NCBI RefSeq assembly: GCF_003574625.1
Contig: NZ_QNUJ01000003.1
Location: 372,001-436,000 of the forward strand
Length of the DNA stretch: 64,000 bases
Origin: Shinella zoogloeoides
Lineage (GTDB): Bacteria; Pseudomonadota; Alphaproteobacteria; Rhizobiales; Rhizobiaceae
Direction of reading: 5' to 3'
In this document: piece after piece, positions 7,150 to 60,178 of the stretch
Numbering within the stretch: the first letter of the stretch is position 1
How the letters are laid out: the number at the start of each line of letters is the position of its first letter
Made by a program: the position numbers and the translations under genes
Notes under the pieces: generated by a model
Told to the model about the DNA's origin: nothing
What the model saw: the letters and a program-made list of their open reading frames with translations, nothing else
Databases searched by the model: none

Positions 7150-7185
7150 GCGGCAAGGCCGCGCAATATACGAGGACAGCCCCGG

Positions 7186-7209
7186 GCGGGAAGGCTTCGG
7201 CCTTCCCGC
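7186..7209 (+). promoter_or_regulatory. Hairpin after binding-protein gene (attenuator/3'-stabiliser)
   Basis: A perfect 10-bp stem GCGGGAAGGC / GCCTTCCCGC closed by a TTCG tetraloop. A T5 run occurs only 13 bases later, just before the next start codon, so it is a poor intrinsic terminator and more likely a partial terminator or a 3' end that protects the binding-protein mRNA. Confidence 0.6.
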
Positions 7210-7227
7210 GCTTCGGCTGAATTTTTC

Positions 7228-10089: not shown

Positions 10090-10117
10090 CCGAACCGGGC
10101 CCGGGCGGGGCGGCTTG

Positions 10118-10900: not shown

Positions 10901-10910
10901 GGGTTTCGTC

Positions 10911-13590: not shown

Positions 13591-13622
13591 TGGTTCTCCG
13601 CTCGGCGCGTTCGTTGTGATGA

Positions 13623-13661
13623 CGCCCGGCCGCCGGCATATCGCATGCGGGCGGCCGGGCG
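13623..13661 (-). promoter_or_regulatory. Strong hairpin between binding-protein and ATPase genes
   Basis: A perfect 12-bp GC stem (13623-13634 with 13650-13661, CGCCCGGCCGCC / GGCGGCCGGGCG) with an inner GCAT/ATGC pairing in the loop. No U-run follows in the direction of transcription, so complete termination is unlikely; a barrier that protects the upstream binding-protein mRNA is more plausible. Confidence 0.65.
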
Positions 13662-13686
13662 GGCATTCTTCGATCGCAGGCTTTTA

Positions 13687-14775
13687 TCAGCCGGCGATCA
13701 TCTCCGTCCACTTCTGGTTCAGCCAGTCGGCCTTGGTCGTGTAGAGATCGTAGCGCGGAATGATCGGCTCGATATCGGACGACACGGCGGCGAATTCCTC
13801 GGCCGAGAGGTCGAGCAGGTCCCGCTTGACGGTCGGCGCGGTACCGACCTTGCGCGACAGGATCGCCTGGATCTGCGGCTGGCACATATAGTTGATGAAG
13901 GTGTGGGCTTCCTCGGTCTTCTGCGAGGCGCGCGACAGCGCCCAGCAGCCCGAATCCATGATGCCGCCTTCCTTCGGGAAGGTCGAGCGGACCGGCTGGC
14001 CGTCCTTGGCGGCAAGGCCCGTCACGTCATGGTAATACTGGCCCATCGGGATTTCGCCCGATTTCAGCGACTGCTCGAACTGCGCCTCGTCGCGATACCA
14101 GAGACGGACGTTCGGCTTCACCTCGGCGAGCTTCTCGAAGGCCTTGATCTGGCCTTCCTCGGTGTCGAGCGCGTTCGTGCCGCCGAAATGGGTCTTGGCC
14201 GTCACTTCCAGAAGGAAGGAGTTGGAGACGAGCGCGAGCAGGCCGAGCTTGTCGGCATTCGCCGGATCCCAGAGCGCGGCCCAAGAGGTCGGCGCTTCCG
14301 GATAGACATTGGTGTTGGTGACGAGCGTGATGTACCAGGCGACCGCCCCGATGCCGGCGACGCGGCCGTCCGGATACTTGTTGACGAAATGGTCGATGAG
14401 GTTCGATCCGTTCGGGATCTTCGCCATGTCGAGCGGCGCCCAGAGCTCGGTCGACTGGCCCTTGAGCATGGCGACCTGCGACATCATCGAGACGTCGGCG
14501 GGGGCCTGGCCGGCGCGGGCGGCCTGCTCGAGCTGGACGAGCCAGGCCTCGCCGGTCGGCTCGGCGACCGATTCCACGGCGATGCCCGTTTCCTTGGTGA
14601 AGTCCGCGAAGATGTTCTTGTCGAAGGAATCCTTGAAGTAGCCACCGTAGACGCCGACCTTCAGCGACTTGTCCTGCGCGCGAAGGACCGCCGGCATGGC
14701 GAGCAGCGAAGCGCCGGCAACGCCCGCACCCAGTACGGCGCGGCGGCTGACATTGGTCTTGAGGATGTCACGCAT
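13687..14775 (-). CDS. Tat-exported ABC transporter substrate-binding protein (PotD-like)
   Basis: Periplasmic receptor of 362 aa for the transporter encoded downstream. It has a twin-arginine signal peptide (NVSRRAVLGAGVAGASLLAM, cleavage near VLRAQ), suggesting export in folded form. The mature chain opens SLKVGVYGGYFKDSF and belongs to the polyamine-type extracellular binding protein family. The frame is open to 14838; the ATG at 14775 is chosen for its AAGGAGAAAG site and because the signal then has a normal length. First gene of the operon, divergent from a LysR regulator that may control it. Ligand unknown. Confidence 0.9.
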   Translation of the reverse strand: MRDILKTNVSRRAVLGAGVAGASLLAMPAVLRAQDKSLKVGVYGGYFKDSFDKNIFADFTKETGIAVESVAEPTGEAWLVQLEQAARAGQAPADVSMMSQVAMLKGQSTELWAPLDMAKIPNGSNLIDHFVNKYPDGRVAGIGAVAWYITLVTNTNVYPEAPTSWAALWDPANADKLGLLALVSNSFLLEVTAKTHFGGTNALDTEEGQIKAFEKLAEVKPNVRLWYRDEAQFEQSLKSGEIPMGQYYHDVTGLAAKDGQPVRSTFPKEGGIMDSGCWALSRASQKTEEAHTFINYMCQPQIQAILSRKVGTAPTVKRDLLDLSAEEFAAVSSDIEPIIPRYDLYTTKADWLNQKWTEMIAG

Positions 14776-15084
14776 GGTCGTCTTTCTCCTTATAGGCCGG
14801 CCGGTCGATCCGGCCGGGAGTGTTCCCGTTGTCGTCATTCTATGTCAGGCCGTCGGCGCCACGGAAGGGCCGAAAGCCGTCAGGGTCGGATTTTCGTGAA
14901 GAAACCTGCATGCGGCCGGCGCGGAGCGTCGCCGCGCATTCCCAATCCGGCCGGAGCCTCCCGATCGTTCCCCAGGGCTTCGCCCTCGTTTTTGCCAGTA
15001 TCGTAATAAAACGCCTGGAAAAGCAATTGGCATTGTTATAGCGTTTGCCGTGAGAAAAACTCACGAAACAGGTTTCCCGCTTTC
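14776..15084. promoter_or_regulatory. Divergent promoter region with LysR-type box
   Basis: The 309 bases between the divergent binding-protein and LysR genes hold no gene. The right third is AT-rich and carries a perfect 6-bp inverted repeat CGTGAG-AAAAA-CTCACG at 15049-15065. Inside it lies the T-N11-A pattern of LysR operators (T at 15051, A at 15063). It ends 19 bases before the LysR start, so autoregulation is likely. Confidence 0.5.
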
Positions 15085-16101
15085 ATGGCCTCGCGCCTGC
15101 CGCCGCTCAATCCCCTGCGCGCCTTCGAGGCCACCGTCCGCCGGGGTTCCGTCTCCGCCGCGGCGCGCGAGCTGAGCGTCACGCATGGCGCGATCAGCCA
15201 CCAGATCCGCGCGCTGGAGGAAGCGCTCGGAACGGCGCTGTTCGAGCGCGGCGGCAAGCGGCTGAAGCTGACGCCGCAGGGCGCGCTGCTTCTGCCGGCC
15301 GTCACCAACGCCTTCGGCGAGATCGCGGCGGCGACCGCGCTGATGAAGCAACCGGAAACGCGCGGCGACATTTCCATCGCCTGCGTGCCCGCCCTCCTCT
15401 CGCTCTGGCTGCTCCCGCGCCTTCCCTCCTTCACCGAGCATTATCCCGGCGTGCGCCTCAAGCTGGTCGCCTCCAACGATCCCGAGCACCTGCGCTCGCT
15501 CGACACGGATGTCTGCGTGCTCTACGGCGACGGCAACTGGCCGGACTGCTGGACGCGGCTTTGGTCGAACCTGCAGCTCTTCCCCGTCGCCAGCCCCACG
15601 CTGCTCAACAGCCGGCCGCTGCGCTCGGTGCGCGACCTTGCCGACCATACGCTGTTCCACGGCGACGACGGGCGCGAATGGAATACCTGGCTTGCGGCGG
15701 CGGACGCTATCGACATGCCGCGCGGCCCGCAGCATTTCATGAGTGATGCGCGCCTTTCCACCGAGGCGGCGCTGCATGGCCAGGGCATCGCGCTCGGCGA
15801 CACGATCACCGCCAGCAGCCTGATCGCCCGCGGCGATCTCGTCGTACCCTTTGGCCTCACCGTGCCGGCGAACCATGCCTTCTACGTCGCCTGCCGGCAG
15901 GCGGCGCGCCAGACGCCCATCGTCAAGGTCTTCATCGACTGGCTCTTCGCCACGCTCGAGGAGGCCCTTCCCGAGCCACAGGCCTCCGCCCGCATGCCGA
16001 TGCGCGGGCGCGGCGGCCGCGCGGCCGATGCCCATCGCCCCCTTTCGGCACCGGCCCCGCGCCGGCCCGCTTCCAGCCAACCGCGCAAAACCCGCGCCTG
16101 A
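15085..16101 (+). CDS. LysR family regulator (GcvA-like)
   Basis: DNA-binding regulator of 338 aa. The N-terminal helix-turn-helix begins LPPLNPLRAFEATVRRGSVS and contains AARELSVTHGAISHQIRALE, the GcvA-subgroup form. The periplasmic-binding-like effector domain follows from about residue 90. The last 45 residues (PMRGRGGRAADAHRPLSAPA onward) are a low-complexity Arg/Ala/Pro tail longer than in most members and possibly disordered. The start has an AGG 12 bases upstream and is consistent with the family. It is divergent from the Pot-type operon and 15 bases upstream of an aminotransferase gene, so it may control both. Confidence 0.88.
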   Translation: MASRLPPLNPLRAFEATVRRGSVSAAARELSVTHGAISHQIRALEEALGTALFERGGKRLKLTPQGALLLPAVTNAFGEIAAATALMKQPETRGDISIACVPALLSLWLLPRLPSFTEHYPGVRLKLVASNDPEHLRSLDTDVCVLYGDGNWPDCWTRLWSNLQLFPVASPTLLNSRPLRSVRDLADHTLFHGDDGREWNTWLAAADAIDMPRGPQHFMSDARLSTEAALHGQGIALGDTITASSLIARGDLVVPFGLTVPANHAFYVACRQAARQTPIVKVFIDWLFATLEEALPEPQASARMPMRGRGGRAADAHRPLSAPAPRRPASSQPRKTRA

Positions 16102-17649: not shown

Positions 17650-20112
17650 ATGCTCACCGAAACCGACCGGCAGACCATCAAGCTTTCCATCTCCGACATG
17701 ACCTGCGCCTCCTGCGTGCGCCGGGTGGAGAAGGCCATAGAGAAGGTGCCGGGCGTTGCCGGCGCCGCCGTCAATCTCGCGACGGAAAAGGCCGAGGTGA
17801 CCTTTGCCGGCACGCCCGATATCGCGGCCGTCGCCGATGCCGTGCGCAAGGCGGGTTATGGCGTTGCGGAGGAGGTGCTGGAATTTCCCGTCGAGGGCAT
17901 GACCTGCGCCTCCTGCATCGGCCGCGTCGAGAAGGCGCTGAAGGCCGTGCCCGGCGTGCTGGAGGCCACCGCCAACCTTGCGCAGGAGCGTGCCCGCGTG
18001 CGCTTTCCCAAGGGGGTCACGTCCTTCGAGGAACTGGCCGCCGCCATCGAGCGCAGCGGCTACAAGGCCATTCGCGAAACGGCCGCCGCGCCCGAGGAGG
18101 ATCGGCGCGCCGCCGAGGCGAGGACGCTGCGGCGCGATCTTCTGATCGCCGCCGTGCTCACGGCGCCGCTCTTCGTCATGGAGATGGGGGCACATGCCTT
18201 CCCCTCCTTCGGCCACTACATCCATGAAACGCTCGGCATGCAGACGAGCCGGGTGATCCAGTTCGTGCTCGCGACGCTGGTGCTTCTCGGCCCGGGGCTG
18301 CGCTTCTTCCGCAAGGGCATTCCGAGTTTGTTGCGCCTTGCGCCGGACATGAATTCGCTCGTCGTCATCGGCACCTTCGCCGCCTGGAGCTTTTCCACCG
18401 TCGCAACCTTCGCGCCGGGCCTGCTGCCAGGCGGCACGGCCAATGTCTATTTCGAGGCGGCCGCGGTCATCGTGACCCTCATTCTTGCCGGGCGTTATCT
18501 GGAGGCCCGCGCCAAGGGGCGCACTGGCGAGGCGATCCGGCACCTTGCCGGCCTGCGCGCCAAATCCGCCCGCGTGCTGCGCGACGGCAAGCCGGAGGAC
18601 GTGCCGCTGGAAAGCGTCGTGCCCGGCGATATCGTGCTGGTGCGGCCGGGCGAAAAGGTGCCGGTCGATGGCGAGGTGACGGACGGCAGCTCGTATGTCG
18701 ACGAATCCATGATCACCGGCGAACCGATGCCGGTAGCGCGCACGGCGGGCGACATGGTGACGGGCGGCACGGTGAACACGACCGGCTCCCTCACCTTCCG
18801 CGCGACCCGCGTCGGCGCCGATACCGTGCTCTCGCAAATCATCCGCATGGTGGAGGACGCACAGGCGGCGAAGCTGCCGATCCAGGCGCTGGTCGACCGC
18901 GTGACGCAATGGTTCGTGCCAGCGGTCATCGCCGTCGCACTGGTGACCTTCGGCCTCTGGCTGGCGCTGGGACCAGACCTGGTCCTCGCCCATGCGCTGG
19001 TCAATGCCGTCGCCGTGCTGATCATCGCCTGCCCCTGCGCCATGGGGCTTGCGACGCCCACCTCCATCATCACCGGCACCGGGCGGGCCGCCGAGCTTGG
19101 CGTGCTCTTCCGCCAGGGCACGGCGCTCCAGACGCTTGAAGGCACCGAGATCGTCGCCGTCGACAAGACCGGTACGCTGACGCTCGGCCATCCGTCACTG
19201 ACGGAGATCGTGCCGGCGGCGGGCTTTGGCCGCGCCGACGTCCTCACCTTGGTCGCCGCCGCCGAGGTGCATTCGGAGCATCCGATCGCGATGGCCATCC
19301 ATGAGGCGGCCGTGGCGGAGGGCATCGACCTGCCGGCGGCGTCCGGCTTCGTGGCGACCTCGGGACAGGGCATTTCCGCAGACGTCTCCGGCCGCAGGGT
19401 GGAGGCCGGTTCGGTCGGCTTCATGCAGGCGCGCGGCCTCGATGTCGCTCCCTTTGCAGGGGATGTCGAGCGACTGGCCGCCGAGGGCGCCTCGCCTCTC
19501 TATGCCGCCATCGACGGCAAGCTCGCCGCGCTCTTCGCCGTCACCGACCCGGTGAAGCCGACGACGAAGGCAGCGGTCGCGGCCCTGAAGGCGCTCGGCA
19601 TCGAGGTGGCGATGATCACCGGCGACAACCGCCGCACCGCCGAGGCCGTGGCGGCGAAGCTCGGCATTACCAGGGTGATGGCCGAGGTGCTGCCGGACGG
19701 AAAGGTCGCCGCGGTGCGCGAGCTTTCGGCCAATGGCGCGAAGAAGGTCGCCTTCGTCGGCGACGGGATCAACGATGCGCCGGCACTGGCCGCCGCCGAT
19801 ACGGGCATCGCCATCGGCACCGGCACGGACGTCGCCATCGAGAGCGCCGACGTGGTGCTGATGGCCGGCGACATGCGAGGGGTTGCGACCGGCATCGCCC
19901 TGTCGCGGGCGACGATGCGCAACATCCGCCAGAACCTCTTCTGGGCCTTCGGCTACAATGTCGCGCTCATTCCGCTCGCCGCCGGCCTGTTCTACCCGGC
20001 CTTCGGCATCCAGCTTTCGCCCGCGCTGGCGGCGGGCGCCATGGCGCTCTCCAGCGTCTTCGTGGTTACGAACGCGCTGCGGCTGAAGCGTTTCAAGGGA
20101 GGTGCGGCATGA
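17650..20112 (+). CDS. copA: Cu(I)-exporting P1B-type ATPase
   Basis: Inner-membrane copper efflux pump of 820 aa. Two N-terminal HMA domains carry MTCASC at residues 17-22 and 84-89. Membrane helices start near residue 155. Further motifs in order are the actuator TGEP (in MITGEPMPV), the intramembrane metal motif Cys461-Pro-Cys463, the phosphorylated Asp505 in DKTGTLT, the P1B-specific SEHPIA, and the hinge GDGINDAPA from 704. CPC together with two CASC HMA domains specifies Cu(I)/Ag(I) rather than Zn or Co. Its stop overlaps the cueR start (ATGA), so pump and regulator are translationally coupled under the same CueR promoter. Confidence 0.95.
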
Positions 20113-20519
20113 ATATCGGCGAAGCGGCGGAGGCGACGGGCGTCACCGCCAAGATGATCCGGCATTACGAGCAGATCGGCCTCATCCGCGCGGCCGGCCG
20201 CACGGGCTCCGGCTACCGTGTCTACGGCCCGAAGGACCTCTCCACGCTCTCCTTCATCCGCCGCGCGCGCGACCTCGGCTTCTCCATCGCCCAGATCCGC
20301 GACCTTCTCACCCTCTGGCAGGACCGCGCCCGCGCCTCCTCCGACGTCAAGCGCATCGCCAGCGAGCATATCGACGAGATGCGGGCCAAGATGCAGCTGC
20401 TGCAGGAGATGGTCCACACGCTGGAACACCTCTCCGCCCACTGCCACGGCGACGACCGGCCGGACTGCCCGATCCTCGAGCAGCTGGCGAGCGGGAAAAG
20501 CGAAGAGGCGTGCTGCTAG
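20109..20519 (+). CDS. cueR: MerR family copper-responsive regulator
   Basis: A 136-aa MerR-type activator. The helix-turn-helix reads [21 protein letters not shown] with [17 protein letters not shown] following. The metal loop has Cys112 and Cys120 in [12 protein letters not shown], matching in position and spacing the two Cu(I) ligands of E. coli CueR. A CC pair ends the protein, as in several CueR homologues. The gene overlaps the copA stop by 4 bases. The two CueR-type promoters upstream are its likely targets, making the operon self-inducing by copper. Confidence 0.93.
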
Positions 20520-48648: not shown

Positions 48649-48713
48649 CCGGTATCATCGGAATGGGCTCACATTCAGCCTGCGCGGCCACCTCTGCCGT
48701 TCGATTATAAATT

Positions 48714-48728
48714 TGACTTAATTACTCA
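48714..48728. promoter_or_regulatory. Candidate iron-responsive box (RirA-type IRO box)
   Basis: TGA-CTTAATTAC-TCA fits the TGA-N9-TCA consensus of rhizobial iron-responsive operators bound by RirA, and is extended to TTGA...TCAA. A -10-like TATAAA lies about 8 bases upstream (near 48706), which would put the box over the transcription start of the AraC regulator gene. RirA itself is not in the window. Confidence 0.6.
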
Positions 48729-48771
48729 AGTTAATATGCTCCGACCTCAACGCAAGGCGGACCCTATTCGC

Positions 48772-49776
48772 ATGACGCTGGAAAACCTGATCCCGCCGGG
48801 TGGCATGACGCCGAGCGACCTCGTTCGGCTCGGCGCCGAATTCGCGCTCGGAGTGGAGCCTGTCGAAATGGCGCCACAGGTTCTGGACACCCCCATCTAT
48901 ACGGGACGCCTTTTGGCGCATGAAGTACAGCCGGGCCTGATGCTCAGCGCCGGCGACGTGACCTATATCTGCGACCAGGGCTTCGCCGTCGAGATGGCGC
49001 CGGCCCTCGTCTGCGGCATCATGCTTTCCGGCCAGCCCGTGCGGACCGAGGTCGAGGGCCACGGCAGCTTCGTCCGCCTCCCGCACCAGGTCAATCTCAT
49101 GGGTTTCGACCGTCCCATCCGCTACACGACGCCGCTGGAGCGCGGGCGCAACTTTCGCACCGCCGGCTTCGTGCTCCAGCCCGCCTTCTTCGAACGTTTC
49201 GCGGAAGACATCGACGACGATGGCGTGAGCGCATTGCGAGAACTCACGACGGGTGGTTTCCGCACGGCGACCATCACCCATTCGCCGCGTATCGGCGAGA
49301 TCGCGCGGCTCTGCCTCGAACATCCCTATGGCGGCCAGCTCGGCAGGCTGTTCCTCGAAAGCAATGCGCTGGCCTATGTGATCGAGGTGGCGCAGGCGCT
49401 GAAGGACGAGCGGCGCCTCGTCGCGCTTCTCGGCAGGCGCGAATACGACCGGGTGGTCCATGCCCGCGAAATCCTCGACGGCGATCTCGTCAACACACCG
49501 ACCACGCTGGAGCTCGCCCGGCGCGTCGGCATCAACGTCACCACCCTGCAGGCCAATTTCAAGGCGGTGTTCGGCCGCACCATCTTCGCCCATGTGCGCG
49601 AGCAGCGGCTGATGATGGCGAAGATCCTGCTGCAGGAATACCGGCTTTCGGTGGCCGAGGCCGGACGCCGCGTCGGCTTTTCCCGCCCCTCGGCCTTCAG
49701 CGCCGCCTATCGCAGGCATTACGGCCACCCGCCGCGCTCGGAACGCCGCCAGTCCACGGGAATGCGGCCGGGCTGA
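48772..49776 (+). CDS. AraC family regulator, PchR/YbtA-like
   Basis: A 334-aa regulator (from 48772; an ATG at 48736 would give 346 aa). The C-terminal double helix-turn-helix reads TLELARRVGINVTTLQANFK and VAEAGRRVGFSRPSAFSAAYRRHYGHPP, the form seen in PchR, which activates pyochelin uptake genes when bound to ferric siderophore. The N-terminal ligand domain contains LPHQVNLMGFDRPIRYTTPLE. 48772 is preferred because AAGGCGG precedes it, while 48736 has no ribosome site and lies 7 bases after the iron box. Activates, presumably, the TonB receptor gene that follows. Confidence 0.85.
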   Translation: MTLENLIPPGGMTPSDLVRLGAEFALGVEPVEMAPQVLDTPIYTGRLLAHEVQPGLMLSAGDVTYICDQGFAVEMAPALVCGIMLSGQPVRTEVEGHGSFVRLPHQVNLMGFDRPIRYTTPLERGRNFRTAGFVLQPAFFERFAEDIDDDGVSALRELTTGGFRTATITHSPRIGEIARLCLEHPYGGQLGRLFLESNALAYVIEVAQALKDERRLVALLGRREYDRVVHAREILDGDLVNTPTTLELARRVGINVTTLQANFKAVFGRTIFAHVREQRLMMAKILLQEYRLSVAEAGRRVGFSRPSAFSAAYRRHYGHPPRSERRQSTGMRPG

Positions 49777-49795
49777 CGGCGCCGCGAACTATTGC

Positions 49796-49828
49796 GTTTC
49801 GCGAATGTTTGCCTGCGTCGCGCGAAAG
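49796..49828 (+). promoter_or_regulatory. Candidate AraC-type direct repeats upstream of the receptor gene
   Basis: GTTTCGCGAATG (49796-49807) and GTCGCGCGAAAG (49817-49828) match at 9 of 12 positions and are spaced exactly 21 bases start to start, two helical turns, as AraC-family dimers prefer. A -10-like TTATAT lies at 49834-49839, so the second repeat would overlap the -35 region as a class II activator site. Confidence 0.45.
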
Positions 49829-49897
49829 TCGAGTTATATCCTCAAGAATACCTGACCCGCTATTTGTGACGCTCATCATGACCAGGGGGCAAGGCAT

Positions 49898-52063
49898 ATG
49901 AACACCATCTCGCGCGCACGGCTGATCTCCACCACGGCGCTCGCGGCTCTTGGCATCGCGGTGGCGGCGGGCGAACCGGCCGCCGCTCAGGAGGCACAGG
50001 AAACGACGACGCTCGAAGCGGTCGTCGTCACGGGCACCAAGCGCCCGCAGGACGACGCCTCCCTGCCCGTCGCAACGACGATCCTCGGCCCGGAAAACGT
50101 GAAACCCTCCTCGCTCGACCCGGTCGGCGACGTCGCCCGCCAGACGCCGGGCACGAATTTCATGGATTTCGGCCGCTTCGGCGAAAGCTACATGACCATG
50201 CGCGGTCTCTCGACGCTCGGCTCGGCGATGAACTCGCTCGACAGCGTGATCGGCCTTTCCGTCGACGGCGTTCCGACGACGCTCTCGGCGATCGGCGCGC
50301 CCTTCCTCGATGTCGAACAGATCGAGGTGCTGCGCGGCCCGCAGGGCACGACCTTCGGTCGCAACGCCTTCGCCGGCGCGATCAATGTGGTGAGCAAGCC
50401 GGCCGACGGGACGAAGGAAACCATCGTCAGTACCGAGATCGGTTCCGATGGCCATGCCTTCATCGAGGGCACGACGGGTGGCTGGCTGATCGACGACCTC
50501 GTTGCCGGCCGCGCGACGCTGCGTTTCCAGAAGTTCGATGGCGACATTCCGAACCCGATCACCGGCAAGGACGAGGGCAGCGCGAAGCTCGGCGCGGCGC
50601 GCGGTACGCTGCGCATCACGCCGGACGACAGCTTCACCATCGATATCACCGGCGGCTTTTCCAGGGACACCCGGCACAACTCTGCCTTCCTCCTGCTGGA
50701 ATCGCCCGACTTCCCGATCAGCGGCGCGGACACCACGCCGGTCAACCGCCAGCAGATCGCGCACGGCTCGATCAAGCTCACCAAGGAATTCGAGCCCTTC
50801 ATCCTGACCTCGACGACGAGCTACCAGGACATCAAGCTGCACAATACCGGCGACTTCACCGACGCCTTCATCTTCTCCAACGCCACCGGCCTGCCGCCGT
50901 CCTTCTTCAACGACCCCAACGCGCAGAAGGTGGTCTTCGACGACCACGAGCGCATCTTCAACCAGGAGGTCCGCCTCAACTCGCATGAAGACGCGGCCGT
51001 GCAATGGGTCGTCGGCGCGAACTATTTCAAATCGGACTTCACGACCCATCGCGTGCAGGATGTCGGCAGCTACTCGCCGACGCTGAACGGCACCTTCGAC
51101 AACGCCATCGACAGCGAGACGATCGCGGCCTTCGCCGACGCGGCGGTGCCGCTCGACGAGCGCTTCACCCTTTCGGGCGGCCTGCGCCTTGCCCACGACA
51201 GGCAGACGCTCGACGCCAACTATGTCTCCAACGGCTTTCCCGGCACCATCCCGGCCTTCGCGCAGACCAATTCATTCAGCGACACCTACCTGACCGGCCG
51301 CATGGCGCTCTCCTACAAATGGAACGACCGCGCCATGAGCTATGCCTCCGTGGCGCGCGGCTATTCCTCCGGCGGCTTCGAGAAGACGACTGCCTATGCC
51401 GGCTTCGGCCTACCCTCGACGCCCTTCCTGCCGGCGACGTCATGGACCTACGAGATCGGCACCAAGGCTGAGCTGACCGATGCCATCCGCGTCAGCGGCG
51501 CGATCTTCTACAATGACGTGAAGGACGGCCAGCTCACGGGTTTCGATCCGGGAACCTTGCTGCCCTTCATGACGAACCAGGCCTTCGAGAGCTACGGCGT
51601 GGAAGCGAACGTGACCGCCACGGTGGCCGACGGGCTGGATTTCACGGTGGGCGGCGCGCTCATCAATTCCCGCCTCGTCGACGTCACGCCGCAATCGGCG
51701 CTCGCGGGGGCGCTGGAGGGCAACAAGGTGCCGCAGGTGCCCGGCTTCTCCGCCAATCTCGGCGTCACCTACCGGACGGAAGCCGATGCGCTCGGCTTTG
51801 CCGGCGAATTCTTCGTCGGCGCCAACTACCAGTATGTCGGCACCCGCTATTCGGACATCCAGAACAGCGCGAAGATGGCGGCCTACCACATCGTCAATGC
51901 GGAACTCGGCTGGGAGAAGGACAATCTGAAGGTCTACGCCTTCGGACGAAACCTGCTCGACGAGCGCCCGCTCTCCTACGCCTTCACCTACGCGCCGGGA
52001 ACGACGGCCGCCTATATCGGCCGCGGCCGCGTCGTCGGCCTGGGGGCGACAATCAAGTGGTAG
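49898..52063 (+). CDS. TonB-dependent siderophore receptor
   Basis: Outer-membrane receptor of 721 aa. Signal peptide RARLISTTALAALGIAVAAG with cleavage near PAAAQ; a TonB box candidate TTLEAVVVTGTK at the mature N-terminus; plug domain to about residue 160 with VEQIEVLRGPQGTTFGRNAFAGAINVVSK; then a 22-strand barrel ending GLGATIKW, with a C-terminal aromatic residue as required for outer-membrane insertion. Sequence style is that of the FyuA/yersiniabactin-type or alcaligin-type receptors. It lies between the PchR-like regulator and the IrtA-like fusion, so its ligand is probably a ferric siderophore. Confidence 0.93.
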   Translation: MNTISRARLISTTALAALGIAVAAGEPAAAQEAQETTTLEAVVVTGTKRPQDDASLPVATTILGPENVKPSSLDPVGDVARQTPGTNFMDFGRFGESYMTMRGLSTLGSAMNSLDSVIGLSVDGVPTTLSAIGAPFLDVEQIEVLRGPQGTTFGRNAFAGAINVVSKPADGTKETIVSTEIGSDGHAFIEGTTGGWLIDDLVAGRATLRFQKFDGDIPNPITGKDEGSAKLGAARGTLRITPDDSFTIDITGGFSRDTRHNSAFLLLESPDFPISGADTTPVNRQQIAHGSIKLTKEFEPFILTSTTSYQDIKLHNTGDFTDAFIFSNATGLPPSFFNDPNAQKVVFDDHERIFNQEVRLNSHEDAAVQWVVGANYFKSDFTTHRVQDVGSYSPTLNGTFDNAIDSETIAAFADAAVPLDERFTLSGGLRLAHDRQTLDANYVSNGFPGTIPAFAQTNSFSDTYLTGRMALSYKWNDRAMSYASVARGYSSGGFEKTTAYAGFGLPSTPFLPATSWTYEIGTKAELTDAIRVSGAIFYNDVKDGQLTGFDPGTLLPFMTNQAFESYGVEANVTATVADGLDFTVGGALINSRLVDVTPQSALAGALEGNKVPQVPGFSANLGVTYRTEADALGFAGEFFVGANYQYVGTRYSDIQNSAKMAAYHIVNAELGWEKDNLKVYAFGRNLLDERPLSYAFTYAPGTTAAYIGRGRVVGLGATIKW

Positions 52064-52084
52064 GGAGCGCGGCAGCATTCTCGC

Positions 52085-52111
52085 GCGGCCCGGTCTTGCC
52101 GGCCGGGCCGC
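52085..52111 (+). promoter_or_regulatory. Hairpin between receptor and transporter genes
   Basis: A 9-bp perfect GC stem GCGGCCCGG / CCGGGCCGC with a 9-base loop in the 76-base gap. The following ATCTTTCCGTTCTTTC is T-rich but broken, so partial termination is possible, lowering transporter relative to receptor expression. Confidence 0.6.
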
Positions 52112-52139
52112 ATCTTTCCGTTCTTTCGCGAGGCTGCTG

Positions 52140-54677
52140 ATGGGCGCGCGTTTCCAGCGGACGATGATGAAGGCTCTCGGAGCCACCGATCACGTCATGA
52201 CGGTGGTTTCGGCCACGAACCTCACGCCCGGCTTCCGCCGCATCCGCTTTTCCGCCCCGACCATGATCGACGGGCGCGAGACGCCGACGGCAAGCTATGT
52301 CCGCCTCTGGGCGCCCGATCCCGACGATCCGGCCAAGGTGCACCAGCGCGGCTATACGCTGGTCGATCCGGACCCGGCGCGCGGCGAGGTCAGCTTCGAT
52401 TTCGTGCTGCACGAGCCGATGGGGCCGGCCTCCGCCTGGGCGGCTGCGGCAAGGCCCGGCGACACGATCAACGCGTCCTACTATATGTTCCACAAGTTCG
52501 AGCCGCCGGAAAACCCGGAAGGCTACCTGCTGATGGGCGATCCCGCGGCCATCCCCGCCATCAACGGCATCCTCGGCGTCCTGCCGCCGGACGCCGCCGT
52601 CGTCGTCATCCTGCAGGCCCATCTGCCGGCGGACCGGGACATTCCCGTCACCTTCCATCCGGGCGCCGAGGTGATCTGGACCGGCGAAGGCACCGGCGCG
52701 CTCGCCGCCGCCGTGCCCGCCCGCGACTGGTCGAACTGGTATGCCTGGATTGCCGCGGAAAACGCCGCGATCAAGGACCTGCGCGCGAACCTCAACCGCG
52801 TGCACGGCTTCCCGCTCGCCGACATCAAGCACGCCGCCTACTGGATCCGCGGCAAGGCGATGCGCCTGCGCAAGGAGGCGGGCGAAGAGGCGGCGGCACC
52901 CGCTCCGCCACCGCCCGCCGCGCCCCCTCGGAAGGCCGCGCCGCGCTGGCGCTCGCAGCGCGGGCAGGAACTGCTCGCATCGCTGCGCTGGAAGCTGCGC
53001 GCCGCCGGCGCCCTGCAGGCCGTCATCTCGCTGATGCAGCTCACCCCGCTGGTCCTGCTCGCCGAACTCGGCCGCCGGCTGCTGGCGGGCGATGCCGGCC
53101 GGGAAACGCTGACGCCGCTGATCCTGTGGGCGCTCGGCCTTTTCGGCGGTGCCGCCCTGCTCTCGACCGTGCTGATGTTCTGGCTACATGCCGTGGATGC
53201 CCGCTTCGGCCATGAGCTGCGCCGCTCGATCGTCGCCAAGCTCGCCCGCCTGCCGCTCGGCTGGTTCACCGACCGCAATACCGCCAGCGTGCACCAGGCG
53301 GTGCAGGAGGATGCCGGGCGGTTGCATTACATGGTCACCCATGCCGTGCCCGACGTCGTTGCCGGCATCGTCACGCCGCTCGCGGTCATCGTCTATCTCT
53401 TCACCGTGGATGCGGCGCTCGCCGGCCTGCTCTTCCTGCCGCTCATCGCCTTCGTCGCCCTCTTCGCCCACATGATGCGCGGCGTCGCCGACAAGCTGGT
53501 GGAACATGCCGACTGGACCAGGCGCGCCAATGCCGCGGCCAGCGCCTTCATCGAGGCCTTGCCCGTCGTGCGCGTCTTCGGCGGCGACGGCAGGGCGTTG
53601 CGCACGGTGCTGAACGGCCAGGCGGCCTTTCTCAACGGCTGGCAGCGCCCGATGGCCGGCCGCAAGGTCGCCTCGCAGCTTGCGATCCAGCCGCCGGCCT
53701 TCCTGCTGCTCATCACGGCGGCCGGCTGCTGGCGCATCCTCTCCGGCGCCATGGCGCCCGCCGATCTCCTGCCCTTCCTCTTCCTCGGCACCGCCTTCGG
53801 CACGCAGATCACCGCCGTCATGTACGGCTTCGTGCCGATGCGCGAGGCGAAGCAGGCGGCAAGCCGCATCGGCACGCTGCTGGAGGAGCTGGAGCTCGAT
53901 CGCAGCCGCTCGCTGCGCGCCCTCTCGCCGGGCCCGCTCGGCCTGCGCTTCAAGAATGTCAGCTTCGGCTACCGGCCGCGCAAGCCGGTGCTCGAAGACA
54001 TCGACCTCGTGCTCGCGCCCGGCACGCTGACGGCGCTGGTCGGCCCGAGCGGCGCGGGCAAGTCCACCCTTGCCGGCCTGCCGGGCCGTTTCCACGATGT
54101 GACGGGCGGCGCGATCCGGCTGATCGCGGGCGAGACGGAAATCGACATTCGCGACGTCAACCCGCAGGTCCTCCAACGCACCGTCGGCTTCGTCTTCCAG
54201 GATGTACGCCTGATCAGGGGAACGCTCCGGGAAAACATCGCGCTCGCCCGCCCCGAGGCGAGCCAAGGCGAAATCGAGGCGGCCGCCCGTGCCGCCCATA
54301 TCCACGAGCGCATCGCAGAGGCGCCGAAAGGCTATGACAGCATTCTCGGCGAGGATATCCAACTCTCCGGCGGCGAGGCGCAGCGCCTTTCCATCGCCCG
54401 CGCGCTGATCGCCGATCCGCCGGTCCTCGTGCTCGACGAGGCCACCGCCTTCGCCGATCCGGAATCCGAACATCTGGTGCAGCAGGCGCTGGGCTCGCTC
54501 ATCGGCAGGCGCACGGTCCTCGTCGTCGCACACCGGCTGCACACCGTGGTGCATGCCGACCGTATCGTCGTCATGGATCGCGGCCGCATCGTGCAGCAGG
54601 GCCGCCATGCGGCGCTGATCGCCGAGCCCGGCCTCTACCGCGACCTCTGGCAGGCCGGCGAAAGGAAAGCCTCGTGA
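52140..54677 (+). CDS. Siderophore-interacting FAD domain fused to ABC transporter (IrtA-like)
   Basis: An 845-aa fusion with the architecture and length of mycobacterial IrtA (about 860 aa). Residues 1 to about 250 are a siderophore-interacting protein (SIP) domain: a flavin-binding barrel with RGYTLVDPDPARG (R70-T73 is the FAD motif) and a NADPH-type lobe (GYLLMGDPAAIPAINGIL). An Ala/Pro linker spans about 252-270. A six-helix exporter-fold domain follows, then the ATPase with Walker A GPSGAGKST from 635, signature LSGGEAQ from 742 and Walker B ending D766-E767. The N-terminal flavin domain faces the cytoplasm, where it would reduce Fe(III)-siderophore and release Fe(II). Coupled to the next gene by GTGA overlap. 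Confidence 0.9.
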   Translation: MGARFQRTMMKALGATDHVMTVVSATNLTPGFRRIRFSAPTMIDGRETPTASYVRLWAPDPDDPAKVHQRGYTLVDPDPARGEVSFDFVLHEPMGPASAWAAAARPGDTINASYYMFHKFEPPENPEGYLLMGDPAAIPAINGILGVLPPDAAVVVILQAHLPADRDIPVTFHPGAEVIWTGEGTGALAAAVPARDWSNWYAWIAAENAAIKDLRANLNRVHGFPLADIKHAAYWIRGKAMRLRKEAGEEAAAPAPPPPAAPPRKAAPRWRSQRGQELLASLRWKLRAAGALQAVISLMQLTPLVLLAELGRRLLAGDAGRETLTPLILWALGLFGGAALLSTVLMFWLHAVDARFGHELRRSIVAKLARLPLGWFTDRNTASVHQAVQEDAGRLHYMVTHAVPDVVAGIVTPLAVIVYLFTVDAALAGLLFLPLIAFVALFAHMMRGVADKLVEHADWTRRANAAASAFIEALPVVRVFGGDGRALRTVLNGQAAFLNGWQRPMAGRKVASQLAIQPPAFLLLITAAGCWRILSGAMAPADLLPFLFLGTAFGTQITAVMYGFVPMREAKQAASRIGTLLEELELDRSRSLRALSPGPLGLRFKNVSFGYRPRKPVLEDIDLVLAPGTLTALVGPSGAGKSTLAGLPGRFHDVTGGAIRLIAGETEIDIRDVNPQVLQRTVGFVFQDVRLIRGTLRENIALARPEASQGEIEAAARAAHIHERIAEAPKGYDSILGEDIQLSGGEAQRLSIARALIADPPVLVLDEATAFADPESEHLVQQALGSLIGRRTVLVVAHRLHTVVHADRIVVMDRGRIVQQGRHAALIAEPGLYRDLWQAGERKAS

Positions 54678-56383
54678 TCATCTCTGCCCTTCTGCCGCCG
54701 CAAACCCGCCCGCGCCTCGCGCCCTTTGCCGTTCTCGTCGTCGTCGCGGCCGCATTGCGCGCGACATCCGCCCTCGCCCTCGTGCCGCTGCTCGGCGCGC
54801 TGTTCTCGCCGGTTCCGCAGGACGCGCTTGCCTGGCTCGGCCTGCTTGCCGCAAGCGTCGCCGCAGGCTGGGCGCTCGAGCGCTTTCTGGTGATCCGCGC
54901 CTTCGATCTCGGCTTTGCCATGATGACGTCGATGAACGCCCGTCTCGTCGATCATCTCCTCGCCGTGCCGATCGGCTGGTTCGGTGCCACGCAGCGATCG
55001 CAGGCCAAACGCGCGCTCGCCGGCGCCGTGCCGGAGCTCTTCGCAAGCTCGGTCAACCTGGCGACACAGGCCTCCATCGCCGTCACGCTGCCCTTCGCCA
55101 TCGCCATCGGCCTTTTCTTCGTCGCCTGGCCGCTCGGCCTTGCGGCGCTTGCCGCGGCACCGATGCTGCTCGGCGCTCTCCTTCTCGGCGGGCGGCTGAT
55201 GCGCCGCGCCGAGGCCGATTTCGCCGCCGCCTCCAGCGAGGCCGCCGAGCGCACGGAGGAATTCGCCCACGCCCAGATCGTGCTGCGCGCCGCCGGCCGC
55301 ACCGGCATGGAGGGTACGCCACTCGGAGCAGCTATCGACGCCCAGAAATCCAGTGGACTGCGCGTCCTCTGGTTCGCCCTGCCCGGCATGCTACTCTTCT
55401 CGCTCGCCATGCAGGCGACGCTCATCGCCATGGTGGCCGTCCTGGCGTTCCTCTATATGGACGGCGCCGTCGATGCCGCCCGCACCGTGGCACTGATCGT
55501 CGTGGTCCTCCGCTTTCTTGAGCCGCTGAATACCCTCTCGGAGCTTTTCCCCGCGCTCGAATCCACCCACGCCGCCGCCGGGCGAACCCTCGCCGTGCTC
55601 GACGTCCCTGCCCAGTCGGTCCCCGCGCAGGACAGCACGCCCGGCACCCCGGACATCGAATTCCGCGATGTGCATTTCAACATCGACGGCACGCCGATCC
55701 TCAATGGGGTTACCTTCACGGTCCCGGCCGGCCGGATGACCGCGCTGGTCGGCCCGTCCGGTTCCGGCAAGAGCACGATCCTCACGCTGATCGCCCGCCT
55801 GCACGACGTCTCCGCCGGAGAAATCCGCGTCGCAGGCCACGACGTGCGCGCCTATGAGCCCGCGACCCTGATGGACCAGCTCTCCGTCGTCTTCCAGAAT
55901 GTGCAGCTCTTCGAGGGCGGCATTGCCGAGAACATCCGTCTCGCCCGCCCCGAGGCCGATGAAGCGGCGCTGCGCGCGGCGGCAGCGGCGGCCTGCGTCG
56001 ACGAGATCGTCGAGCGCCTTGGCGGCTGGGACGCGCCGGTCGGCGAAGGCGGCAACAACCTTTCCGGCGGCGAGCGCCAGCGCGTCAGCATCGCCCGCGC
56101 GTTGCTCAAGAACGCACCGATCCTGCTGCTCGACGAGGCGACGAGCGGCCTCGACACGCTGAACGAGGTCGCCGTCGCCACCGCCCTCACCCGCTTCGGC
56201 CACCACACCGCCCTCGTCGTCGCACATCGCATCGAGACCATCGCGAAGGCCGACCACATCCTCTTCGTGGAACACGGCCGCATCGTCGAGGCGGGCAGCC
56301 GCGACGACCTGATCGCCGCCGGAGGCCGCTTCGCCACCTACTGGAACAGCCGTCGCCAGGCGAAAGACTGGACGTTCGCATAG
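54674..56383 (+). CDS. ABC half-transporter (IrtB-like)
   Basis: A 569-aa exporter-fold half-transporter, partner of the preceding fusion; mycobacterial IrtB is about 579 aa. Six membrane segments, then the ATPase with Walker A GPSGSGKST (from 360), signature NLSGGERQRVSIARALL (LSGGE from 463), Walker B ILLLDEATSGLD and a switch His in VVAHRIETI. It has no SIP domain, as in IrtB. GTG start overlapping the upstream TGA with AAAGGAAAG before it. The heterodimer probably imports ferric siderophore across the inner membrane, as IrtAB and YbtPQ do despite their exporter fold. Confidence 0.9.
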   Translation: MIISALLPPQTRPRLAPFAVLVVVAAALRATSALALVPLLGALFSPVPQDALAWLGLLAASVAAGWALERFLVIRAFDLGFAMMTSMNARLVDHLLAVPIGWFGATQRSQAKRALAGAVPELFASSVNLATQASIAVTLPFAIAIGLFFVAWPLGLAALAAAPMLLGALLLGGRLMRRAEADFAAASSEAAERTEEFAHAQIVLRAAGRTGMEGTPLGAAIDAQKSSGLRVLWFALPGMLLFSLAMQATLIAMVAVLAFLYMDGAVDAARTVALIVVVLRFLEPLNTLSELFPALESTHAAAGRTLAVLDVPAQSVPAQDSTPGTPDIEFRDVHFNIDGTPILNGVTFTVPAGRMTALVGPSGSGKSTILTLIARLHDVSAGEIRVAGHDVRAYEPATLMDQLSVVFQNVQLFEGGIAENIRLARPEADEAALRAAAAAACVDEIVERLGGWDAPVGEGGNNLSGGERQRVSIARALLKNAPILLLDEATSGLDTLNEVAVATALTRFGHHTALVVAHRIETIAKADHILFVEHGRIVEAGSRDDLIAAGGRFATYWNSRRQAKDWTFA

Positions 56384-56451: not shown

Positions 56452-58872
56452 TTAAAGCCGAATGCGCTTGCCTTCGGGATCGTAGGCGCAACGGTCCACC
56501 GCCGTTGCCCTGCTGCGGCGACCGAACGCCTCGACCTCGATCTCCCGCAATGCCATATCCTCCCCCTTGAGATAGCCGAAGACGAGCGGGGCTCCGATGG
56601 TGTGGCCGAAGTCGCCGCTGGTGGTCATTCCCAGGATACGGCCGTTCGCCAGCATCGCCTCGCCGCCATAGACCGGCAGGGGATCGTCGAGCCTGAAACA
56701 GGCGAGCTTTCGCGCGATACCACGCTCCTTCTGCGCCGCGATGGCATCGCGGCCCTGGAAATCCCCCTTCTTCATCGACAGCGCAAAGCCCAACCCGGCC
56801 TCCAGCGGCGTGTCGTCGGGCGTGATGTCGGCGCCCCAGTAGAGGTAGCGTTTCTCCATGCGCAGGCTGGAAATCGCCTTGTACCCCACATTGGCGATTC
56901 CCAGCGGCGTTCCCGCTTCGCGCAGGATCTCGTAGACATAGGCAAGATACTCGCTCGGCACATGCAGTTCCCAGCCGAGCTCGCCGACATAGGTCACGCG
57001 GGCGGCGAAGACCGGCGCCCATCCGATCCGGATCTCGCGGCATGTCATGTAGGCAAAGGCAGCATCCGACACATCGTGCTCGGTGACGGCGGCTAGGACA
57101 TCGCGCGCCAGCGGCCCGCAGAGATTGATGACCCCATACGCACCCGTCACGTCCTGCATGGTCACGGATCCGTCGCGGGGCATGTGGCGGCGGATCCAGT
57201 CTCCGTCACGCGTGCCGAAGGCGGAGCCCGTGACGACATGGAAGCGGCTTTCCCCCCGCCGCATGATGGTCAGGTCGGCCTCGATACCGCCACGCTTGTT
57301 GAGCATCTGCGTATAGACGACAGCGTCCTCGCGACGATCGACATTCGCGGCCGCCAGCCATTGCAGGAAAGCAAGGGCTCCCGGCCCCGAAATCTCGAAC
57401 TTGGAGAAGGATGACTGATCGATCAGCGCGACGCGCTCGCGGACCGCCCGGTGCTCCCGGCCGATCACCTCGGCGTGGGGCGCCCGCTCGAAGGTTTCCA
57501 GCGGCGGCCTGTTCTCGCCGGGCGCCAGGAAATAGTTGGGCCGCTCCCAGCCGAACTTGGCGCCATTGACGGCGCCCTCGGCTGTCAGGGTCTGGTAGAG
57601 GGGCGAACGCCGCAATGGCCGGCAGGCCGAGCGCTCCTCCTCCGGCCACGCAATCGCATAATATTTGGAATAGGCCTCGATGGCGCTGTCGCGCAGATAG
57701 GCGAGCCCGCCATGCGGGTGGCCGAAGCGACGCAGGTCGAAGGCCCACAGATCCATGCCCGGATCGCCCTCCAGAATCCAGTTCGCCATGGCGCGGCCGG
57801 CTCCGCCCGAGGCGGCAATCCCGGATGTAAAGCCGCAGGCGACAAAGAAGTTCTCGAAGCCGCCGGCAAGGCCCATGACCGGTTCGCCATCCGCCGAAAT
57901 GGGGATGGGGCCATTGACCACGGAGCGCACGCCAAGCTCGCCGAGCAGCGGGATACGGTTCGAAGCGCCTTCGATCACCTCGGCGATGCGCTCCAGATCG
58001 TCCGTAAACAGTTCCTGGCCGAAATCCAGCGGCAGCTTGCCGAGCCCGTAGGCGGCCCGCGTCTGTTTCTCCCAGCCGCCGATCGCCATCGCGCCCGGTT
58101 CCGGCTTGACGTAGAAATTGGCGTCCGGGTCCCGCAAGGTCGGCAGGTCATCCGGCACCTTCGGCGACTTCTCGGTCACGAAATATTCATGCTCGACCAC
58201 GGTGACCGGCAGATCGATGCCCGCCAGTTCGCCGAGCTGCCGCGCCCAGAGCCCGGCGGCGTTGACGACGATCTCGCAGCCGACATCGCCTTCGGCCGTT
58301 TTTACCGCCGTGATACGCCGGTCCCGGATCGTGAAGCCGGTGACGGCGACGCCCTCGACGATGCGCACGCCGCCTGCCCGGGCTCCCTTCGCATAGGCAT
58401 GGGTCAGCGAATAGGGATCCACATGGCCGTCGGAAGCGATCCAGGTCGCGCCGCGCAAGCCCTTCGTATCGACAAGCGGAAAGAGGCGCTTGACCTCGTC
58501 CGGGCCGACGAGCTCCATGTCGAAACCGTAGCTTCTTGCGGCCGTATGCGCCCGCTTCAACTCCTCCCAGCGGGCATCGGAAGCGGCGAGCCGAAGGCTG
58601 CCGACATTCTTCCAGCCGACATCCTGACCGGTCTCCGCACCGATCCTGGCGCACAGGTCGGCGCTGTATTGCATCAGCCGCGTCAGGTTCACCTTGCTGC
58701 GCAACTGCCCCATGAGACCGGCGGCATGCCAGGTGGAGCCCGCCGTCAGCGCACGCTTTTCCAGGAGCAGGACGTCCTTCTCGCCCGCCTTGGCAAGGTG
58801 ATAGGCGATGCTGGTGCCGATGGCGCCGCCGCCGACGATGACGATACGGGCGTGAGATGGAAGCTTTGACAT
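56452..58872 (-). CDS. Dimethylglycine/sarcosine dehydrogenase-like flavoprotein
   Basis: An 806-aa two-domain enzyme. The N-terminal DAO-type FAD domain has VIVGGGAIGTSIAYHLAKAG and TAGSTWHAAGL, where His49 is the expected covalent FAD site. The C-terminal half from about residue 430 is a GcvT-type aminomethyltransferase fold that takes the one-carbon unit onto tetrahydrofolate (ending LRMEKRYLYWGADI and GFALSMKKGDFQGRDA). It should demethylate dimethylglycine or a similar N-methyl amino acid. The ATG at 58872 has GGAAAGA upstream. Second gene after the Rieske oxygenase, which would supply its substrate. Confidence 0.88.
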   Translation of the reverse strand: MSKLPSHARIVIVGGGAIGTSIAYHLAKAGEKDVLLLEKRALTAGSTWHAAGLMGQLRSKVNLTRLMQYSADLCARIGAETGQDVGWKNVGSLRLAASDARWEELKRAHTAARSYGFDMELVGPDEVKRLFPLVDTKGLRGATWIASDGHVDPYSLTHAYAKGARAGGVRIVEGVAVTGFTIRDRRITAVKTAEGDVGCEIVVNAAGLWARQLGELAGIDLPVTVVEHEYFVTEKSPKVPDDLPTLRDPDANFYVKPEPGAMAIGGWEKQTRAAYGLGKLPLDFGQELFTDDLERIAEVIEGASNRIPLLGELGVRSVVNGPIPISADGEPVMGLAGGFENFFVACGFTSGIAASGGAGRAMANWILEGDPGMDLWAFDLRRFGHPHGGLAYLRDSAIEAYSKYYAIAWPEEERSACRPLRRSPLYQTLTAEGAVNGAKFGWERPNYFLAPGENRPPLETFERAPHAEVIGREHRAVRERVALIDQSSFSKFEISGPGALAFLQWLAAANVDRREDAVVYTQMLNKRGGIEADLTIMRRGESRFHVVTGSAFGTRDGDWIRRHMPRDGSVTMQDVTGAYGVINLCGPLARDVLAAVTEHDVSDAAFAYMTCREIRIGWAPVFAARVTYVGELGWELHVPSEYLAYVYEILREAGTPLGIANVGYKAISSLRMEKRYLYWGADITPDDTPLEAGLGFALSMKKGDFQGRDAIAAQKERGIARKLACFRLDDPLPVYGGEAMLANGRILGMTTSGDFGHTIGAPLVFGYLKGEDMALREIEVEAFGRRSRATAVDRCAYDPEGKRIRL

Positions 58873-58978
58873 ATCCGTCTTTCCGAAGCCGACCCGCACT
58901 GCGCGTGGTCCCGTTGAATTCCCGGCAGCGGGCAAGCCGCCACCTTGTTGTCGGTGATCGAGAGCGCGGGCGGGAGCG

Positions 58979-60178
58979 TCAGGCGCTCATCCGCCCGACA
59001 TACCAGCGCACATAGCGGTCGACATTCGCCTCCTTGTCCGGCGCATAGGGGCCCGGCTCGAAGCTGGGCGAGGTGACGCCGCGCCACTGGCGGCGGCAGA
59101 TATCCCAGTCCTCGGACATGACCTGGTGATGGAAGGCGGCAATCGCCTCGGGATCGTAATCGCGCTCTTCGACGGCGTTTTCATCCACCAGCCAATAGGC
59201 CCGCACGATGGTCCGGGTCGGGGATACCGGCGTGATGCGCACGGTATGCGCATAGTCGGAATTGGCATGGCACCAGAAATTGATGTTGGTGTTGGCGCGG
59301 GCCGTTCCCATGTCGGGGTCGGTGAAACCGGCCATCAACACCTTGCAGACGAGCTGACCGTCCGGGCTTTCCGTCACCATGCCCTTGCGGACCGGGGTCC
59401 GGTTGGCGCGGAACCATTCCGCCGTGTTGTTGGACGAGGTGTTGACGCGCGCGACGTCGAGGCCGGCCCTTTCCCAGCGCCGGCGACACTCGCCCAGGCG
59501 CTCGGCGATCTCCCCCTTCAGAGCGGGATTGTCGTTCTCCGTATCATACTGCACGGAGACATAGCCGTGATGATTGCCCTCGCAATGGTAACATTCGCGG
59601 TTGTTCTCCACGACGATCTTCCAGTTCACATCCAGATCGTAGTCGCGGATCAGGGCGACCTTCGCCCGCGTCATGCCCTGGGATGCGAGAACCGGCGAAA
59701 GATGGTCGCGCAGTTCATGAAACGGAGACGGCGTCTCGGACAGGTTGACGAAGATCAGCCCGTCGAATTCCCCCACATGCGCCGGCTTCAGGCCATGCGC
59801 TTCCTTGTCGAACCCTTCTCCCATCATCGGCGCGCCGATCAGCCGGCCATCGTGCCCGTAAGTCCAGGCATGATAGGGACAAACCAGGCGGGCAGCCTTG
59901 CCCTTTTCCTTCGTGCAGACGAGGGAGCCGCGGTGACGGCAGATATTGTGGTGGGCGTGCAGCCCGCCGTCCTGATCGCGGACGACAACGACCGGCACAC
60001 CTCCAACGTCCAGCGTCAGGTAATCGCCCCGCCCGGCAACCTCGATGGAGTGACCGGCAAAGAACCAGCTGTTGCGGAAAATGCGGCGCTGCTCCTCGGC
60101 GAATATCTCCGGATCGGTATAGAACGAGCCCGGAAGGCCGTGGCCCGGTCGATAGGTATTCAGACAGTGAACGTTCAT
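58979..60178 (-). CDS. Rieske non-haem iron oxygenase (glycine-betaine demethylase GbcA-like)
   Basis: A 399-aa alpha subunit of an aromatic-ring-hydroxylase-type oxygenase. Rieske ligands are Cys80, His82, Cys100 and His103 (CRHRG, CPYHAW); the mononuclear iron site lies in ENNRECYHCEGNHH (His198 and His203), with the bridging residue region before it. GbcA/StcD-type proteins use this scaffold to remove methyl groups from glycine betaine or stachydrine. The ATG has TTGGAGAAA upstream. A ferredoxin reductase partner (GbcB) is not in the window. First gene of the operon, 106 bases before the dimethylglycine-dehydrogenase-like gene; divergent from LysR. Confidence 0.87.
   Translation of the reverse strand: MNVHCLNTYRPGHGLPGSFYTDPEIFAEEQRRIFRNSWFFAGHSIEVAGRGDYLTLDVGGVPVVVVRDQDGGLHAHHNICRHRGSLVCTKEKGKAARLVCPYHAWTYGHDGRLIGAPMMGEGFDKEAHGLKPAHVGEFDGLIFVNLSETPSPFHELRDHLSPVLASQGMTRAKVALIRDYDLDVNWKIVVENNRECYHCEGNHHGYVSVQYDTENDNPALKGEIAERLGECRRRWERAGLDVARVNTSSNNTAEWFRANRTPVRKGMVTESPDGQLVCKVLMAGFTDPDMGTARANTNINFWCHANSDYAHTVRITPVSPTRTIVRAYWLVDENAVEERDYDPEAIAAFHHQVMSEDWDICRRQWRGVTSPSFEPGPYAPDKEANVDRYVRWYVGRMSA

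Follow-up and report, generated by a model that had tools for sequence, protein, structure and literature searches.

A Ybt-type gene cassette that appears to carry IrtAB in place of YbtPQ in Shinella zoogloeoides

Gene content of the cassette

The window analysed here is a stretch of 64,000 nucleotides of the Shinella zoogloeoides genome, and all positions are those of the window unless another sequence is named. Four genes lie in a row on its plus strand. An AraC-family transcriptional regulator of 346 amino acids (48736-49776; Pfam HTH_18, 68.4 bits) is followed by a FyuA-like TonB-dependent outer-membrane receptor of 721 amino acids with Plug and beta-barrel Pfam domains (49898-52063), by IrtA, a SIP-ABC fusion of 845 amino acids that matches the Pfam models FAD_binding_9, SIP, ABC_membrane and ABC_tran (52140-54677), and by its partner IrtB, an ABC half-transporter of 569 amino acids (54674-56383). 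IrtB matches ABC_tran, and its ABC_membrane match of 27.6 bits is slightly below the cut-off of 28. Within IrtA the SIP domain (FAD/NAD(P)H reductase) occupies residues 1-242 and the ABC half-transporter residues ~271-841.

A preliminary description of the locus had named these four genes in this order, with the last two overlapping by 4 bases and no gene for a periplasmic binding protein. Reading frames and Pfam matches bear out all three points: the overlap of irtA and irtB is at 54674-54677, and no binding protein is found by Pfam among the four genes. The locus start given there, 48714, is not a gene start and falls within a palindrome (48713-48729, see Regulation). The regulator had been called PchR-type; its membership of the AraC family stood, and no specific regulator model was matched over cut-off. 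The AraC DNA-binding domain is the sole model match of this protein, which is 26-36% identical, mostly over part of its length, to the regulators of related cassettes. The S. curvata regulator frame starts at a Met that corresponds to window position 48772, which is perhaps the conserved start.

Beside irtB, on the minus strand (56452-60178), are a GcvT/FAD oxidoreductase (dimethylglycine dehydrogenase-like) and a Rieske oxygenase, both absent from the cassettes of other species. Elsewhere in the window (17650-20519), the gene of a P-type ATPase for heavy metals, which has two HMA domains, overlaps by 4 bases the MerR regulator gene that comes after it.

Identity of IrtA and IrtB

The fusion and its partner had been likened to IrtA/IrtB, and full-length matches, trees and key residues all agree with this. 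The window IrtA matches IrtA 7wiu with 756 bits over residues 5-841, compared with 351 bits for the best other ABC protein, and the window IrtB matches IrtB 6tej_B with 451 bits. Its SIP part scores 199 bits against the IrtA domain versus 65 bits against ViuB. The phylogeny of SIP-ABC fusions that the preliminary description had named as a check gave the same picture: 22 IrtA SIP rows (the window and 21 others) split from 41 stand-alone SIPs with a branch support of 97, and in the ABC tree the window pair groups with IrtA and IrtB, with YbtP-like and YbtQ-like rows branching outside.

The residues of the SIP motif, which we take to be FAD-binding, are invariant in 81 of 81 IrtA sequences, the alphaproteobacterial ones included. 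ATPase motifs are intact in both proteins, at K641, S743-E746, D766-E767 and H798 of IrtA and at K366, S464-E467, D487-E488 and H518 of IrtB, where they are invariant in 19 sequences. The histidine triad of IrtA, located at 356/402/407 in M. tuberculosis according to the available text of PMC10246721, corresponds to residues 350/396/401 of the window protein, and these positions are His in 81, 80 and 81 of 81 IrtA, respectively. All four YbtP-like proteins likewise carry His at the first and third positions, and one of the four does so at the second. In the predicted IrtA model the SIP part has a pLDDT of mostly 71-92; fold comparison of the model outside its SIP domain recovered an exporter fold with no clear separation from other exporter-fold chains. 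Judged by sequence, the last two genes of the cassette are IrtA and IrtB and no look-alike fusion, and from their kin the SIP domain would be expected to bind FAD and to reduce ferric siderophores.

Other SIP-ABC fusions in Pseudomonadota were considered as candidates. Six long frames (G439, G578, G409:C3, G403, G392, G196) were rejected, an IrtA membrane domain lying beside the SIP domain in none, as was one locus (L061) in which the SIP gene stops before a separate FhuC-like ATPase gene. For the remaining SIP matches, among those listed in the phylum, Shinella and family searches, the criteria were the length of the frame and its score only.

Distribution and conservation

An IrtA-alignment scan of contigs from 84,980 species, with two exact peptide patterns that divergent forms would escape, yielded 211 stretches and 161 relatives, the best 80 of which were analysed. 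Among these 80, three are non-actinobacterial by title, namely Shinella curvata, Chelatococcus reniformis and Rhizobiales bacterium AFS012373. Their IrtA loci are 79-88% identical to that of the window, the next being Phytomonospora at 50%; actinobacterial IrtAB are ~45% identical to the window pair. In 79 of the best 80 of the 161 loci irtB follows irtA, and in the 80th the contig ends.

Searches with the SIP domain, in genome samples that overlap, found the IrtA type in 4 of 21 Shinella genomes and, at family level, in 2 of 247, again Shinella only. At the level of the order (1 of 397) and of the class (1 of 385), with E-values up to 1e-26, the single genome was in both instances the source genome itself. 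In the phylum sample of 398 genomes, the top SIP match beyond the source genome had an E-value of 3.6e-20 and was 31% identical in a frame of 256 amino acids. In S. zoogloeoides Teo12 the SIP match lies on plasmid NZ_CP131131.1 (906733-907467).

All four genes are present together in three other Shinella loci, with 86-99% identity, and in two further genomes, Chelatococcus and AFS012373, with 65-81% identity, the regulator being 65% identical in both. Gene order is the same in S. zoogloeoides Teo12, Shinella sp. PSBB067, S. curvata and Chelatococcus, and in AFS012373 the regulator and receptor stand in reversed orientation beside irtAB. Eight flanking proteins of the window were sought in five of these loci (18-21 kb); all eight were found in the same-species locus and none in the other four. 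A chance neighbourhood was rejected, because the four genes recur together in three Shinella loci and two further genomes, and are common between species, whereas the flanks are not in four of the five loci compared. Matches to the regulator or receptor (E 1e-8) were absent from the stretch around irtA in the other 77 of the best 80 of the 161 loci, all actinobacterial by title.

A second siderophore-type set lies just downstream of irtB in S. curvata (L056, 3490-8565), comprising an AraC protein, a TonB receptor (26% identical to the window receptor), a permease of the RhtX/FptX family (302 bits, below the cut-off of 356) and a methyltransferase-like frame. Bartonella HY761 has a receptor and a permease similar to those of this set (63% and ~50%). 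In the source genome, ~70 kb from the cassette (L058 = C21:484000-503000, ~9793-15519), frames resembling an AraC protein and a TonB receptor perhaps form, with a stand-alone SIP, a second locus for siderophore use.

Receptor and ligand class

The closest solved relative of the receptor is FyuA (4epa), the yersiniabactin/pesticin receptor, at 158 bits, the next solved chain scoring 39 bits; together with the Plug and barrel domains this upholds its earlier description as a TonB outer-membrane receptor. Its structure model, built on 4 sequences, had a pLDDT of 27.5 and was set aside as unusable.

The nearest kin outside the cassette are 34-37% identical, which is too distant for the ligand to be fixed from them. 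Three relatives at ~34% are plasmid-borne and stand beside YbtPQ-like pairs: in Pantoea sp. At-9b with NRPS genes, salicylate synthase and thiazolinyl imide reductase, in Shinella WSC3-e with an NRPS/PKS gene, and in Neorhizobium. A 30% relative in Bartonella HY761 is near a YbtPQ-like pair as well. Around the 35-37% relatives of Agrobacterium and Shinella H4-D48 no exporter-type ABC pair is found; close to the one in Agrobacterium Ach5 there is an iron transporter of the binding-protein type. On the sister branch of the IrtAB tree, Nonomuraea antri has two salicylate synthase matches over cut-off. Our best guess for the ligand, with an about even chance of being right, would be a salicylate-type hydroxyphenyl-oxazoline/thiazoline siderophore, and the window looks like a Ybt-type receptor and regulator cassette with IrtAB in place of YbtPQ.

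In the salicylate/thiazoline NRPS cluster on pPAT9B02 of Pantoea sp. At-9b (L153, 1-26516), a single receptor is accompanied by two kinds of ABC system, a binding-protein transporter and an exporter-type pair. The Shinella sp. WSC3-e plasmid (L156, 1-13309) carries an NRPS/PKS gene, a YbtPQ-like pair, an AraC protein, a FyuA-like receptor and an MFS permease, which may amount to a yersiniabactin-like system within the genus.

Siderophore synthesis genes

The preliminary description had noted that siderophore synthesis genes are lacking and had pointed to piracy of a foreign siderophore. Neither NRPS condensation domains nor NIS synthetases gave a match in the source genome, in Teo12 (G415) or in a third genome (G409), and salicylate synthase was matched in these three only far below cut-off. 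Thus, none of the three families is over cut-off in the source genome, and within the window no siderophore synthesis gene lies beside the cassette. AFS012373 likewise has no NRPS condensation and no NIS match. The absence of the three families fits piracy, which suits S. zoogloeoides and PSBB067; to judge from the missing genes, this Shinella probably takes up siderophores made by other microbes. Two NIS matches were found in S. curvata, and six condensation and two NIS matches in Chelatococcus; these are siderophore-type synthesis genes, so that piracy may not apply to all carriers.

Regulation

Two candidate regulatory sites were found on the plus strand. Upstream of the receptor gene there is a direct repeat, CGAnnGT-N14-CGAnnGT (49802-49829), which is present at the same place in the window and five other cassettes, and occurs once in the window versus 0.23 expected; the pattern, defined once the alignment had been viewed, is present in 17 non-cassette loci as well. 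A repeat spaced by two helical turns suits an AraC protein, and this one is likely to be the operator of the AraC protein. Upstream of the regulator gene lies the palindrome TTGAC-N7-CTCAA (48713-48729), a candidate RirA (IRO) site that fits TGA-N9-TCA, the RirA motif in the portion of PMC8822346 available. It is found once in the window versus 0.05 expected and is kept in all four aligned Shinella sequences; genome-wide it is hardly enriched, with 6 per strand versus 5 for a reversed control. RirA itself is encoded in the genome (NF008886, 287.7 bits, cut-off 193).

Evolutionary origin

Concatenated IrtAB trees were built from the window and 30 of the 80 loci, with a YbtPQ-like outgroup; a long Pantoea row was left out of the careful tree. 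The sister group of the alphaproteobacterial pair is Phytomonospora plus Nonomuraea, which puts the pair within actinobacterial IrtAB, with support of 96 in the quick tree and 99/96 in the careful tree. Actinobacterial IrtAB form a single clade in 1% of 200 bootstrap trees, and the AU test on an actinobacterial origin is borderline (p 0.034 for the quick tree, p 0.081 for the careful tree). A transfer of irtAB from actinobacteria is likely on this phylogeny, though not proven. GC content is 0.702 in irtA and 0.695 in irtB versus 0.659 in the window, and third-position GC is 0.89 and 0.865, respectively, versus an average of 0.874 over 10 further genes of the window. Because the third-position values are so close to those of the other genes, any transfer would not be recent; base composition gives no sign of a recent one, which was rejected.

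In the Phytomonospora stretch (L068), a frame at 7017-7484, ~1.5 kb upstream of irtA, resembles a Fur-family regulator by eye.

Proposed function and alternative explanations

The cassette quite likely serves the use of a foreign ferric siderophore via the FyuA-like receptor and IrtAB. In such a scheme the receptor would bring the ferric siderophore through the outer membrane, energised by TonB, and the IrtA-IrtB heterodimer, an importer of exporter fold, would move it across the inner membrane without a binding protein, as IrtAB is described to work in the available text of PMC10246721. The SIP domain of IrtA would hand electrons from NAD(P)H via FAD to Fe(III), and iron would be freed at the membrane. 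In iron plenty RirA would repress the regulator gene; once RirA leaves its site, the AraC protein, whose inducer would most likely be the ferric siderophore, would turn on the receptor through the direct repeat. An irtAB of actinobacterial source would have been joined to a Ybt-type receptor and AraC regulator, where YbtPQ-like pairs otherwise stand. Here the direction of import, the reduction, the regulation, the foreign origin of the ligand and the direction of transfer are what we infer. A more specific version is put forward tentatively, with the balance somewhat against it: IrtAB, captured from actinobacteria and set behind a FyuA-type receptor, would let alphaproteobacteria pirate hydroxyphenyl-oxazoline siderophores of actinobacterial make (carboxymycobactin/nocobactin kind) across two membranes, with reduction at the inner membrane.

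The same import-and-reduce machine might handle a different type of ligand, be it a catecholate, a hydroxamate or another metal complex, with the likeness to FyuA and the Ybt neighbourhoods of distant receptor kin being misleading, and with a receptor only ~34% identical to kin of known neighbourhood, and Agrobacterium kin apart from salicylate genes, this has perhaps one chance in four of being correct. It has to contend with FyuA as the sole solved receptor with a strong match (158 versus 39 bits), and with the YbtPQ-like pairs that accompany three receptor relatives, in one case along with salicylate synthase and thiazolinyl imide reductase. That the strain re-imports a siderophore of its own, made by a pathway outside the three families sought, appears improbable: NIS or NRPS genes do occur in other carriers and the absence covers three families only, but none of the three is over cut-off in the source genome, G415 or G409, and the window has no synthesis gene beside the cassette.

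Slightly less probable still is that the pump exports something, or that the SIP domain is a relic with transport alone left. In favour are the exporter fold and mycobacterial import of carboxymycobactin without need for the SIP domain, as given in PMC10246721; against are the SIP motif residues, invariant in all 81 IrtA including the alphaproteobacterial ones, and the conservation of receptor and pump together. Hardly credible is an independent proteobacterial origin of the SIP-ABC fusion, by joining of a local SIP to a YbtPQ-like pair. The ingredients occur in Rhizobiaceae, other Shinella included, but the SIP tree sets the 22 IrtA rows against the 41 stand-alone ones (branch 97), and the ABC tree places the pair with IrtA and IrtB, away from YbtP-like and YbtQ-like rows. 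Use of a foreign ferric siderophore through the receptor and IrtAB is the reading that we prefer.

Comparison with known systems

IrtAB has been studied as a mycobacterial machine, and a Gram-negative version would give a non-mycobacterial host in which one can ask why pump and reductase are linked, and whether the pair functions without lipid-bound mycobactin. The cassette also lets one ask how one inner-membrane importer can replace another beneath the same kind of outer-membrane receptor. If the origin suggested by the trees is true, a working importer pair crossed from actinobacteria into cells with a different type of envelope, where it became part of a Ybt-type cassette. A literature search, with most subscription papers outside its scope, found no description of a Gram-negative IrtAB; in the part of PMC8891985 available, reduction by a transporter domain is a rare case, with M. 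tuberculosis IrtAB as the example.

The Shinella pair shares with IrtAB of mycobacteria and other actinobacteria (7wiu, 6tej) the fused SIP domain, the exporter-fold heterodimer, adjacent irtA and irtB, the histidine triad and the ATPase motifs. What sets it apart is an alphaproteobacterial host and a position behind a TonB receptor, together with an AraC regulator; it is ~45% identical. Stand-alone SIPs such as ViuB and YqjH have the same FAD-binding SIP fold, unfused to a pump. A FyuA-like receptor and an exporter-type ABC pair are what the cassette has in common with YbtPQ-FyuA (yersiniabactin) and PchHI-FptA (pyochelin), as far as the available texts of PMC10967856 and PMC10846271 describe them; the ABC pairs there are without a SIP domain, and synthesis genes, absent here, are part of those systems. 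An AraC regulator is a further shared feature, the one of the yersiniabactin system being YbtA. IrtAB itself is already known, and what appears to be new, by sequence comparison, is that it occupies the YbtPQ position in a Ybt-type receptor and regulator cassette.
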